Assembly: GCA_009773375.1 (NCBI GenBank)
Contig: WRPH01000002.1
Location: forward strand, 98,640 to 152,500
From: Paracoccaceae bacterium
GTDB taxonomy: Bacteria > Pseudomonadota > Alphaproteobacteria > Rhodobacterales > Rhodobacteraceae
Direction: 5' to 3'
DNA length: 53,861 nt
Shown here: piece after piece, positions 46,788-53,385 of the stretch
How positions within the stretch are numbered: position 1 is the first letter of the stretch
Layout: each line of letters starts with the position of its first letter
The notes under the pieces: generated by a model
Database searches by the model: none
The model's input: the letters and a program-made list of their open reading frames with translations, nothing else
What the model was told of the DNA's origin: nothing
Translations under genes and position numbers: made by a program

Positions 46788-49700
46788 ATGTCCATTCTTG
46801 CCAGCATCCACCACCTGACCCATTACAAATACGACCGCCCGGTCACGCTTGGTCCGCAGGTGATCCGGCTGCGCCCGGCCCCGCACAGCCGCACGCGCGT
46901 CGTGTCGCACGCGCTGAAGGTCACGCCCGCCAATCATTTCGTGAACTATCAGCAAGACCCCTACGGCAACTGGCTGGCGCGCTATGTCTTTCCCGATCCG
47001 GTGACAGAACTGCGCATCGAGGTCGATCTGACCGCCGACATGACCGTCTACAACCCGTTCGATTTCTTCGTCGAAGCCAGCGCCGAAACCTGGCCCTTCG
47101 ACTACCCCGCCGATATTGCCGACGATCTGGTGATCTACCGCAAGACCGATCCCGCCGGCCCGCTGCTGCAAGCTTTGCTGGCCCGCGTCCCCCGCGACCC
47201 GCTGCGCACCACCGATTTCATCGTCCGGTTGAACGCGCAACTTGCGCAGGAAATCGGCTATGTCATCCGCATGGAGCCGGGGGTGCAGACGCCCGAAGAA
47301 ACCCTGTCTGTCGGCAAGGGCTCGTGCCGCGACACCTCTTGGCTGCTGGTGCAGACCCTGCGACATCTGGGCTTTGCGGCGCGGTTTGTCTCGGGCTACC
47401 TCATTCAGTTGAAACCCGATCTGGTGGCCATCGACGGCCCGGCAGGCACCGCGCAGGATTTCACCGATCTGCATGCGTGGTGCGAGGTTTACCTGCCCGG
47501 CGCAGGCTGGATCGGGCTGGACCCGACCTCGGGCCTGCTGACCGGCGAAAGCCATATCCCGCTGGCCGCCACGCCGCATTACACCAACGCCGCGCCGATT
47601 TCCGGGCTGGCCAGCTATACCGAGGTCAGCTTTGATTTTGACATGTCGGTGACGCGCACCGCCGAACACCCCCGCATCACCAAGCCGTTTTCCGATGCGG
47701 CTTGGGCCGATCTGAACGCGCTGGGCCACAAGGTCGATGCCGCCCTTGCCGCAGGCGATGTACGCCTGACCATGGGCGGCGAGCCGACCTTCGTGTCGAT
47801 CGACGATTTTGAGGCGGGCGAGTGGAACACCGACGCCGTCGGCCCCACCAAACGCGTGTTTGCCGATGCGCTGATCCGCCGCCTGCAAGCCAGATTCGCG
47901 CCGGGGGGGTTTCTGCATTACGGCCAAGGCAAATGGTATCCCGGCGAAACCTTGCCGCGCTGGACCTTCAGCCTGTATTGGCGTCGTGATGGCAAGCCGA
48001 TCTGGCATAACCCCGATCTGATCGCGCCCGAAATCTCGGACGCCAAAGCCACCCCCGCGCAAGCCACCGCGCTGCTGCAAACCATTGCCGAAACGCTGGG
48101 CCTGCCCGCCGAAAACGTCACCCCCGCCTATGAAGACCCGGCTGAATGGATCGTCAAGGAAGGCAATCTTCCCGAAAACGTCACCCCCGAAAACTCGCGC
48201 CTGAAAGACCCCGAGGAACGCAACCGCATCGCCCGCGTGTTTGCGCGTGGCCTGACCGAACCGTCGGGCTTTGTGCTGCCGGTGCAACGCTGGCAATCCA
48301 AGGCGGCGCAGACATGGGTTTCGGAAAAATGGGCGCTGCGGCGTGGCCATCTGTTCCTGGTGCCGGGCGACAGCCCGGTCGGCTACCGGCTGCCGCTGGG
48401 CGCGCTGCCCTATGTCAAACCTGCCGACTATCCGCATGTCCATCCCTCTGACCCGTTCGAGGATCGTGGCGATCTGCCCGATTTCACTGCCGAGTCCCCG
48501 GCGCAGCATCGGCAGGAAAAATCCGCCTTCACCGCCTCCGAGGCCACGCAAGACCGCCGCGAACAAGTGATTTCTGATGTCGCAGGCACAGTGCGCACCG
48601 CGATTTCGGTGGAACCGCGCGACGGGCGGCTGTGCGTGTTCATGCCGCCGGTCGAAAAGGTGGAAGATTACCTTGAACTGATCGCCGCCGCCGAGGCTGC
48701 TGCAAAACTGCACGGCCTGCCGGTGCATATCGAAGGCTACGGCCCGCCGAACGATCCGCGCCTGAACGTGATCCGCGTTGCCCCCGATCCGGGGGTGATC
48801 GAGGTCAATATCCATCCCTCGCACAACTGGGCCGAAACCGTCGCCACCACCGAAGCGGTCTATGAAGAGGCCCGCCAGCTTCGGCTGGGTGCCGATAAAT
48901 TCATGATCGACGGCAAACATACCGGCACCGGCGGCGGCAATCATGTTGTGGTCGGCGGTGTCACCCCGTCTGACAGCCCGTTCCTGCGCCGCCCCGATCT
49001 GCTGGCCAGCCTGATCCTGCATTGGCAGCGGCACCCGTCGCTGTCCTACATGTTCTCGGGCCTGTTCATCGGCCCCACCTCGCAGGCCCCGCGCATTGAC
49101 GAAGCGCGGATGGACTCGCTTTACGAACTTGAAATCGCGCTGTCGCAAATCCCGGCGCCGGGGCAGGGAAGCACGCCGCCGCCATGGCTGGTGGACCGGC
49201 TGCTGCGCAACCTGCTGGTGGACGTCACCGGCAACACCCACCGCGCCGAGATTTGCATTGATAAACTTTACTCCCCCGATGGTCCCACCGGGCGGCTGGG
49301 GTTGGTGGAATTTCGCGGCTTTGAAATGCCGCCCAACCCCCGGATGAGCCTTGCGCAGCAACTGCTGATCCGGGCGATCATCGCGCGGATGTGGGCAAGC
49401 CCGATTACCGGCAATCTGACCCGCTGGGGGACCACCCTTGCCGACCGCTTCATGCTGCCGCATTTTGTCTGGGCGGATTTTCTCGATGTGCTGGCCGATC
49501 TGCGCCAGCACGGCTTTGATCTGAACCCCGACTGGTTCAAGGCGCAGGCCGAATTCCGCTTTCCGTTCTGTGGCGAGGCGACGTTTGAAGGCGTCACGCT
49601 GGAACTGCGCCAAGCGCTAGAGCCGTGGCATGTGCTGGGCGAAACCGGCGCCATCGGCGGCACCGTGCGTTATACCGACAGCTCGGTCGAACGGCTGCAA

Positions 49701-50105
49701 GCCAAGCTGACCTGCGGCGATCCGGGCCGCTACACCGTCACCTGCAACCAGCGCCAATTGCCGATGCAGTCGGTCGGGGCAGGGGTGTCGGTGGCCGGGG
49801 TGCGCTACAAGGCGTGGCAACCGCCGCTTGCGCTGCATCCGGTGTTGCCGGTGAATGCGCCGCTGACGTTTGACATCTACGATACATGGAACGGCCGGGC
49901 CTTGGGCGGCTGCACCTATCATGTCGCCCACCCCGGCGGGCGCAATTATGATACCTTCCCGGTGAACAGCAACGAGGCCGAGGCAAGGCGGCTTGCCCGC
50001 TTCGAGCCGCGCGGTCATACTGCGGGCTTCTATCAGCCCACAGCAGAAACCCCGCACCCCGAGTTCCCGATGACCCTCGACCTGCGCCGCGCGCCCCGGC
50101 AGTGA
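46788..50105 (+). CDS. Transglutaminase-like/DUF2126 protein
   Basis: A 1105-residue cytoplasmic protein. The first ~100 residues form the bacterial transglutaminase N-terminal beta domain (LTHYKYDRPVTLGPQVIRLRP). The papain-like core follows with Cys180 (GKGSCRDTSW), His229 (DLHAWCEVY) and Asp245 (WIGLDPTSG). The long C-terminal region is DUF2126 (LTMGGEPTFVSIDDFE, DGKHTGTGGGNHVVVGG, EFRGFEMPPNPRMSLAQQLLIRA), which has features of glutamine synthetase/ATP-grasp-like amidoligases. The start is the ATG at 46788; upstream in-frame codons look non-coding. It is coupled by TGATG to the ATP-grasp gene. A role in peptide ligation or cleavage is predicted, not shown. Confidence 0.9.
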   Translation: MSILASIHHLTHYKYDRPVTLGPQVIRLRPAPHSRTRVVSHALKVTPANHFVNYQQDPYGNWLARYVFPDPVTELRIEVDLTADMTVYNPFDFFVEASAETWPFDYPADIADDLVIYRKTDPAGPLLQALLARVPRDPLRTTDFIVRLNAQLAQEIGYVIRMEPGVQTPEETLSVGKGSCRDTSWLLVQTLRHLGFAARFVSGYLIQLKPDLVAIDGPAGTAQDFTDLHAWCEVYLPGAGWIGLDPTSGLLTGESHIPLAATPHYTNAAPISGLASYTEVSFDFDMSVTRTAEHPRITKPFSDAAWADLNALGHKVDAALAAGDVRLTMGGEPTFVSIDDFEAGEWNTDAVGPTKRVFADALIRRLQARFAPGGFLHYGQGKWYPGETLPRWTFSLYWRRDGKPIWHNPDLIAPEISDAKATPAQATALLQTIAETLGLPAENVTPAYEDPAEWIVKEGNLPENVTPENSRLKDPEERNRIARVFARGLTEPSGFVLPVQRWQSKAAQTWVSEKWALRRGHLFLVPGDSPVGYRLPLGALPYVKPADYPHVHPSDPFEDRGDLPDFTAESPAQHRQEKSAFTASEATQDRREQVISDVAGTVRTAISVEPRDGRLCVFMPPVEKVEDYLELIAAAEAAAKLHGLPVHIEGYGPPNDPRLNVIRVAPDPGVIEVNIHPSHNWAETVATTEAVYEEARQLRLGADKFMIDGKHTGTGGGNHVVVGGVTPSDSPFLRRPDLLASLILHWQRHPSLSYMFSGLFIGPTSQAPRIDEARMDSLYELEIALSQIPAPGQGSTPPPWLVDRLLRNLLVDVTGNTHRAEICIDKLYSPDGPTGRLGLVEFRGFEMPPNPRMSLAQQLLIRAIIARMWASPITGNLTRWGTTLADRFMLPHFVWADFLDVLADLRQHGFDLNPDWFKAQAEFRFPFCGEATFEGVTLELRQALEPWHVLGETGAIGGTVRYTDSSVERLQAKLTCGDPGRYTVTCNQRQLPMQSVGAGVSVAGVRYKAWQPPLALHPVLPVNAPLTFDIYDTWNGRALGGCTYHVAHPGGRNYDTFPVNSNEAEARRLARFEPRGHTAGFYQPTAETPHPEFPMTLDLRRAPRQ

Positions 50106-52498: not shown

Positions 52499-52506
52499 GG
52501 GCAGCG

Positions 52507-53385
52507 GTGATCTACGACGTCAAACTGCGCATCGCCTATAAATATGCCTCGCCAGCGGTGGGCGGGCGGCATCTGGCCTGCCTGCTGCCGCTGAACGACG
52601 TCGATCAGACCGTGCAAAGTGCCAGCCTGCTTATTCAGCCCGCCCCGACCGAGCGTCTCGACCGGCTGGATTTCTTCGGCAATCAGGTGACAGAGTTCAG
52701 CTTTCGCGCCCCGCATGATGGCGTTCGCCTGACCCTGCAGGCGCGGGTCAGCCGCAGTGCCCCGCCGCCAGCCATTGCGGCTTCGGCGCGGATGGCCGAC
52801 CTGCCGCAGCTTCTGAAGCAATGCCGCGATGTCGGGTCGCAATCGCCGTTGCATTGCCTGTCTGCTTCGCTGCGGGTGCCGCTTGATCCGGCGCTGACCC
52901 GCTTTGCGCGGGCGCAGGTGCAGCCCGGTCACAGCGTTGCCGATACGGTTCTGGCCGTCGGGCAGGCGCTGCACGATCATATGGAATTCGATGCGGCAGC
53001 AACCACAGTAGACACCCCCGCTGCCGAGGCTTTTGCCCAGGCGCGCGGCGTCTGTCAGGATTTTTCGCATATCATGATCGCCGGGTTGCGCGGCATCGGC
53101 ATTCCGGCGGGCTATGTCAGTGGCTTTCTGCGCACGCAGCCGCCGCCCGGCAAGCTGCGTCTGGAGGGGGCGGATGCGATGCACGCCTGGGTGCGGGCGT
53201 GGTGCGGCCCGGCGCTGGGCTGGCTTGAATTTGATCCGACCAACGCCTGCTATTGCGGGCAGGATCATATCGTCGTCGCGCGTGGCCGCGATTACGCCGA
53301 TGTGGCGCCGATCAAAGGCACCATGCGGATTTCCGGCAGCCAGAAAAGCAGCCAAGCCGTCGATGTGATCCCGGTTGCGGGCTGA
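52507..53385 (+). CDS. Transglutaminase-like cysteine protease family protein
   Basis: A 292-residue protein with the bacterial transglutaminase N-terminal beta domain (YDVKLRIAYKYASPAVGGRH) and a complete papain-like triad: Cys183 (GVCQDFSHIM), His226 (DAMHAWVRAW) and Asp243 (LEFDPTNACY). The start is GTG at 52507, 8 bp after the ATP-grasp gene. It is the last gene of the three-gene set; the Anbu-type peptidase gene often found next in this system is not present before msrP. Confidence 0.93.
   Translation: MIYDVKLRIAYKYASPAVGGRHLACLLPLNDVDQTVQSASLLIQPAPTERLDRLDFFGNQVTEFSFRAPHDGVRLTLQARVSRSAPPPAIAASARMADLPQLLKQCRDVGSQSPLHCLSASLRVPLDPALTRFARAQVQPGHSVADTVLAVGQALHDHMEFDAAATTVDTPAAEAFAQARGVCQDFSHIMIAGLRGIGIPAGYVSGFLRTQPPPGKLRLEGADAMHAWVRAWCGPALGWLEFDPTNACYCGQDHIVVARGRDYADVAPIKGTMRISGSQKSSQAVDVIPVAG

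Follow-up and report, generated by a model that had tools for sequence, protein, structure and literature searches.

What is made, or unmade, by a bacterial gene set that joins two transglutaminase-like proteins to both an ATP-grasp protein and an amidoligase-like one, and are three such genes a complete system? The question is posed by a three-gene unit in a 53,861-nucleotide stretch (the window) of a Paracoccaceae bacterium (assembly GCA_009773375.1, contig WRPH01000002.1, positions 98,640 to 152,500). A first-pass annotation of this DNA had described three coupled genes with transglutaminase-fold (TG), DUF2126, circularly permuted (CP) ATP-grasp and alpha-E domains, the last two fused, and had supposed that these three proteins might be the minimal unit. 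The gene content is confirmed by the open reading frames (ORFs) and Pfam matches: three co-directional ORFs form an intact unit, with DUF2126 scoring 1332 bits and CP_ATPgrasp_2 (439 bits) and Alpha-E (180 bits) indeed lying on one chain. With a 4-base overlap between genes 1 and 2 and an 8-base gap before gene 3, a single transcript is likely. The most informative new point is the decay of the ATP-grasp in this DUF2126 module. The features of the unit are as follows.

46788..50105, + strand: gene 1, TG-DUF2126, an N-terminal papain-like transglutaminase-fold part plus DUF2126, 1105 residues (ORF; Pfam PF08379, PF01841, PF09899)
46803..47036, + strand: Bact_transglu_N domain of gene 1, residues 6-83 (Pfam)
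47196..47525, + strand: Transglut_core of gene 1, residues 137-246 (Pfam)
47325..47327, + strand: predicted catalytic Cys180 of the first TG domain (invariant in 15 aligned homologues)
47472..47474, + strand: predicted catalytic His229 of the first TG domain (same alignment, invariant)
47520..47522, + strand: predicted catalytic Asp245 of the first TG domain (same alignment, invariant)
47619..50087, + strand: DUF2126 region, a predicted ligase with a glutamine-synthetase-type fold in the model (Pfam; structure model; fold searches)
50102..52498, + strand: gene 2, circularly permuted ATP-grasp fused to alpha-E (ORF; Pfam)
50375..51511, + strand: CP_ATPgrasp_2 domain of gene 2, residues 92-470 (Pfam)
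50633..50641, + strand: degenerate site Ser178-Asp179-Arg180, where Anbu-type ATP-grasps have Glu-Asp-Asn (sequence comparison)
51248..51250, + strand: Gly383 in place of the Lys predicted to contact ATP phosphate in the Anbu type; the Gly-rich loop after it is missing (sequence comparison)
51656..52489, + strand: Alpha-E domain of gene 2, residues 519-796, all-helical in the model (Pfam; structure model)
52507..53385, + strand: gene 3, second transglutaminase-like protein (TG2), Bact_transglu_N plus Transglut_core (ORF; Pfam)
53053..53055, + strand: predicted catalytic Cys183 of TG2 (conservation)
53182..53184, + strand: predicted catalytic His226 of TG2 (conservation)
53233..53235, + strand: predicted catalytic Asp243 of TG2 (conservation)

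We call the canonical Anbu operon module A and the window-type DUF2126 operon module B. That gene 2 has the CP-ATP-grasp fold is supported by its sequence, through the Pfam match and the solved relative 3n6x (215 bits). Its active site was compared across 110 module-B and 42 module-A sequences, and later across 116 and 46; matches that contained stops or covered fewer than 300 query residues were dropped, as were three duplicates and one Caballeronia module-A sequence with a stop in its span. In the motif VLEDN, Glu and Asn are each retained by 46/46 module-A sequences and by 0/116 of module B, where Asn has become Arg in 114/116 and Glu has become Gly, Ala or Ser in 112/116 and Asp in one. 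The Lys of the following motif is likewise kept throughout module A (46/46) and survives in only 7 of the 116 module-B sequences, most of which also lack the Gly-rich loop that follows it; the window protein reads Ser-Asp-Arg at the Glu-x-Asn position and Gly at the Lys position. Other positions hold, with Asp or Glu at position 184 in 116/116 module-B sequences and Ser204 in 112/116. In a tree rooted within module A, the 116 module-B ATP-grasps group as a single clade (support 0.65) with a long branch. Eight clusters in which both motifs could be read (L185, L186, L190-L193, L263, L266) have an intact module-A ATP-grasp in each case and a degenerate one adjoining or fused to the module-B alpha-E. 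The Lys motif is still present in module B of Granulicella (L265), Enterobacter (L266) and Azospirillum (L269), which suggests, from these sequences, that Glu and Asn were lost before Lys.

Glutathionylspermidine synthetase/amidase and trypanothione synthetase are also circularly permuted ATP-grasps. In a trypanothione synthetase model, as described in excerpts of PMC3581523, Asp330 and Glu344 ligate one Mg2+ and Glu344 and Asn346 the other, two Lys touch ATP phosphates, and Ser351 touches the substrate carboxylate. The Glu-x-Asn motif is present in 10 of 11 GSP_synth sequences read (2 of 13 matches were left out of this comparison). Profile alignment of the window-type ATP-grasp to GSP_synth was not significant, so the residue correspondence rests on motif and order. 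On that correspondence, the module-B ATP-grasp is without the predicted Mg2+ ligands of the related synthetases. Because these are lost in 116/116 module-B sequences, the earlier assumption that the ATP-grasp is a working ligase is not sustained, and the window ATP-grasp is probably the wrong enzyme to assay for ligation. The same genome also encodes a GSP_synth-family protein with Glu-x-Asn (C70:61142-62266), about 9 kb from a GCS2 ligase (C70:51219-52112).

Which protein, then, would form a bond? With the ATP-grasp decayed, the predicted ligase role moves to DUF2126, which is likely the amide-bond ligase of module B. Fold searches with the DUF2126 model return the glutamine synthetase (GS) fold with modest scores, including gamma-glutamylmethylamide synthetases and a glutamine-synthetase homologue, in line with the amidoligase-like reading first given to it; the model carries an extra beta-rich C-terminal region. 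By hhalign, DUF2126 had no significant sequence match to GS or GCS2 (probability <1%). Six DUF2126 residues (E55, E395, N397, H442, E564, R566) are invariant in 58 sequences, and we tentatively read them as possible counterparts of the metal and substrate residues of GS, in GS order.

Both transglutaminase-fold proteins carry the full Cys-His-Asp triads first noted in them: C180/H229/D245 of gene 1 is invariant among its aligned homologues, and C183/H226/D243 of TG2 reaches at least 97% conservation across 70 sequences and does not vary among 18 mixed TG domains. The nearest relative of the TG domains with a solved structure is 3isr, which bears the name of a putative cysteine protease. Elsewhere the genome has another weak transglutaminase-like paralogue, at C70:88192-88758 (L006; 29% identity, E 8e-4).

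The unit travels intact. We examined 80 named loci, alphaproteobacterial by their titles and top-ranking among at least 581 relatives, with flanks of at most 9 kb; 7 were dropped for downstream room of less than 3.5 kb. A fused ATP-grasp/alpha-E and then a second TG follow TG-DUF2126 in 69 of the remaining 73, conservation far above chance. The four exceptions (L025, L026, L056, L081) have TG-DUF2126 without the downstream ATP-grasp/alpha-E and TG2. The three genes also occur together on a plasmid stretch of Azospirillum brasilense.

Is the unit complete without the proteasome-like peptidase Anbu, whose gene was first noted as missing? That absence is real but local: an Anbu protein search that took in the whole genome found none in the window and a single match, on contig C57. 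The suggested search elsewhere in the genome thus succeeded, and the idea that the genome lacks Anbu was rejected, since C57 carries a complete canonical Anbu operon. Of the two parts of the refuting condition named in the first-pass annotation, an Anbu gene that is required and that lies elsewhere, the second holds here.

L009:6541-7287 (contig C57), - strand: module-A Anbu (own-genome match)
L009:7306-8115 (contig C57), - strand: module-A transglutaminase (contig reading)
L009:8115-9062 (contig C57), - strand: module-A alpha-E (contig reading)
L009:9066-10604 (contig C57), - strand: module-A ATP-grasp (contig reading)

The C57 protein matches solved Anbu structures (PDB 5loy, 250 bits), scores 31.8 bits against PF00227, over the cut-off, and has Thr1, Asp17 and Lys32/33, candidate catalytic residues according to excerpts of PMC6376114. 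A PF00227 search of the same genome had returned only HslV beside HslU and missed it; paralogue searches revealed C57. The window's own contig carries the HslV-HslU operon, at C53:77227-77742 (L001). Not finding Anbu beside an operon of the window type is therefore no evidence that the genome lacks the gene. Although known since 2008, Anbu has no proven function according to excerpts from the literature of 2017 to 2021.

Do the two modules belong together? We counted them in 190 genomes of the class and 200 of the phylum, samples that share some genomes and whose co-occurrence counts are uncorrected for shared ancestry. In the class sample DUF2126 occurs in 29 genomes and Anbu in 55 (both 21, DUF2126 alone 8, Anbu alone 34, neither 127; Fisher p 1.4e-7), and in the phylum sample in 63 and 69 (both 35, DUF2126 alone 28, Anbu alone 34, neither 103; p 4.9e-5). 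Alpha-E is present in every DUF2126 genome (29/29 and 63/63). By our own cut, in which a PF04168 score of at least 245 bits marks the Anbu type and a lower score with an open frame of at least 750 residues the fused type (4 genomes unclassed), 27 of the 29 class-sample DUF2126 genomes have an Anbu-type alpha-E, the two exceptions being 84% and 74% complete. On this count, and given the complete Anbu operon in the genome itself, the minimal-unit idea is not supported, against which stand the 8 of 29 class-sample DUF2126 genomes with no detected Anbu; the three window proteins are unlikely to be a whole working unit there.

Proximity is less general. Counted by eye, the modules lie within about 10 kb of each other in 3/21 class-sample and 15/35 phylum-sample genomes with both, nine of the 15 stemming from two genera, and they are close together in 3 of the 80 named loci (L023, L060, L085). 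L060 and L085 (upstream of 9001) have the Anbu operon directly 5' of TG-DUF2126 on the same strand, L060 without a detected module-A TG. L185 and L190-L193 likewise have Anbu immediately 5' of a co-directional TG-DUF2126, with the fused ATP-grasp/alpha-E and TG2 divergent and the module-A ATP-grasp and alpha-E alongside; a stand-alone module-A TG was not detected in these five. On a 90-kb IncFII plasmid of Enterobacter roggenkampii (L266), module A (no Anbu in the stretch) and module B lie near arsC.

Published excerpts place related genes under nitrogen control. Burkholderia cenocepacia H111 has an NtrC- and sigma54-dependent cluster that includes DUF404/407, DUF403, a TG and a large TG protein (PMC5491218). 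Module A (with no Anbu seen), TG-DUF2126 and module B stand in a single row in a sequenced B. cenocepacia record, which was matched to the H111 locus tags solely through gene order and names. In Pseudomonas putida, PP_2686-2688 rise 11- to 15-fold under nitrogen limitation and the Anbu gene PP_2685 only 1.1-fold (PMC7801951; first fold-change column, taken as wild type), PP2685 rises 11-fold in a comparison that we take as nitrogen versus carbon limitation (PMC3325844), and PP_2685 and PP_2688 rise on nitrate versus ammonium (PMC8050072). In marine metagenomes, DUF403/404/407 are associated with urea-metabolism domains (PMC3597751), and a predicted sigma54 regulon includes COG3484, described as a proteasome-type protease (PMC12316311). 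In Sinorhizobium meliloti, one list of candidates for competing ability contains the regulatory region of a COG2308 (CP-ATP-grasp) gene (PMC8407117 Table 3). A stretch of the Acidithiobacillus caldus megaplasmid mpAca1.1 (L264, 1-14171) holds an Anbu-like peptidase, TG-DUF2126 with its TG part apparently separated, an intact ATP-grasp and alpha-E; ntrC and glnL (ntrB) lie about 4 kb from that peptidase with a transposase in between, and adjoin a second Anbu-like ORF (2302-2982, annotated hypothetical).

Outside the three genes, every neighbour family is confined to 20 or fewer of 81 sources (the 80 loci and the window), and many of the recurring clusters come from Rhizobium-like or Mesorhizobium loci. 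Nine representatives were annotated, of which seven had Pfam matches, all to large or common families: a LysR regulator, a phosphorylase, a Tad/VWA protein, an ABC ATPase (18/81 sources), an acyl-CoA dehydrogenase, Tex and an aldehyde dehydrogenase (10/81). The window itself ends (53681-53861) in the beginning of a protein that resembles a Tat-exported oxidoreductase of the MsrP/YedY type.

We tentatively favour, at somewhat less than even confidence, a reading in which DUF2126 forms amide bonds, the two papain-like domains cleave or transfer them, the ATP-grasp has decayed, and module B serves the cell in nitrogen starvation. With ATP, DUF2126 would activate a carboxylate, which may be a gamma-carboxylate in glutamate or in a peptide, and join it to an amine; the TG-fold part of gene 1 and TG2 would hydrolyse or transfer such amides, much as bifunctional glutathionylspermidine synthetase/amidase reverses with its amidase half what its synthetase half has joined. 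The ATP-grasp/alpha-E fusion, given the residue losses observed, may have given up the usual use of Mg-ATP to become a substrate-holding or scaffolding partner, and co-occurrence and gene order suggest that module B is functionally linked to module A with its intact ATP-grasp. Judging from the transcriptomes of other species, the outcome might be a nitrogen-starvation cycle that conjugates and de-conjugates nitrogen-bearing peptides or amines. A fuller version, which we consider rather unlikely as a whole, is a two-module cycle in which the ancestral ATP-grasp became a pseudoenzyme substrate-holder fused to alpha-E, DUF2126 ligates, and TG and Anbu strip the conjugates to release nitrogen. Several observations weigh against our preferred reading: 8 of the 29 class-sample DUF2126 genomes have no detected Anbu, among complete genomes G004, G043 and G140 hold DUF2126 without detected Anbu, so that Anbu is not universally coupled, and simple scans found neither an excess of sigma54 sites upstream in 81 sequences nor an NtrC-like palindrome before the window operon. 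A strict sigma54 pattern occurs in 5 of 23 other loci, counted without a control.

Could the ATP-grasp still be an active peptide ligase that, together with alpha-E and the TGs, builds a peptide or protein tag, with DUF2126 as a second ligase? The retained fold, Ser204 and many conserved Arg, Gly and Asp positions speak for this, as does the phosphate freed from ATP by the ATP-grasp of the Yersinia Anbu operon (excerpts of PMC6376114); however, that enzyme belongs by context to module A, and module B lacks Glu and Asn in 116/116 sequences and Lys in 109/116, so that we hold this reading unlikely. We regard as equally doubtful a catabolic route in which DUF2126 attaches a gamma-glutamyl group to a polyamine, a methylamine or a similar amine and the TG domains later hydrolyse the resulting amide, with amines as the nitrogen source. 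It resembles the PuuA/PuuD or GmaS routes. The gamma-glutamylmethylamide synthetases among the fold matches, the nitrogen control in relatives (PMC5491218, PMC7801951) and the urea-metabolism association (PMC3597751) are consistent with it, but the fold matches do not reveal a substrate and the recurrent neighbours are sparse and of large or common families, the ABC ATPase and aldehyde dehydrogenase among them leaving some room for a catabolic link. Quite improbable is a proteolytic role, with the TG-fold proteins and Anbu acting as peptidases in protein recycling during nitrogen starvation and DUF2126 and the ATP-grasp merely binding peptides: 3isr carries a protease name and Anbu is a proteasome homologue (PF00227), but Anbu cleaved none of the peptides tested according to excerpts of PMC6376114, and DUF2126 keeps many invariant residues in a ligase-like fold. 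The split into intact and decayed ATP-grasp lineages predicts which protein of each module makes the bond, and directs attention to nitrogen-limited cells and gamma-glutamyl-type amides.

How does the unit compare with known systems? The Anbu operon of P. putida (PP_2685-2688) and Yersinia bercovieri, which consists of CP-ATP-grasp, alpha-E, transglutaminase and Anbu, has homologous ATP-grasp, alpha-E and TG domains, whereas the window has a DUF2126-TG fusion, an ATP-grasp/alpha-E fusion, a degenerate ATP-grasp site and no Anbu. The nitrogen-regulated cluster I35_5080-83 of B. cenocepacia includes a large TG protein, and the sequenced record shows TG-DUF2126 in such a cluster; there, unlike in the window, module A (no Anbu seen) and module B are lined up in a single row, all in the same direction. 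In glutathionylspermidine synthetase/amidase and trypanothione synthetase, a single enzyme has one domain that makes a product and another that breaks it down (excerpts of PMC3581523), whereas the window ATP-grasp is without Glu-x-Asn and the predicted ligase, DUF2126, has a different fold. The nearest folds to the DUF2126 model are those of the glutamine synthetase, gamma-glutamylmethylamide synthetase and YbdK superfamily, from which DUF2126 differs in its fusion to TG, its beta-rich C-terminal region and its lack of a significant sequence match. This class of systems was predicted by the amidoligase survey of Iyer et al. 2009 (as cited in excerpts of PMC6376114 and PMC5666114), and the link to such amidoligase and peptide-modification systems that the first-pass annotation had drawn is supported; the division into two modules and the decay of the ATP-grasp in one of them are derived in the present analysis.

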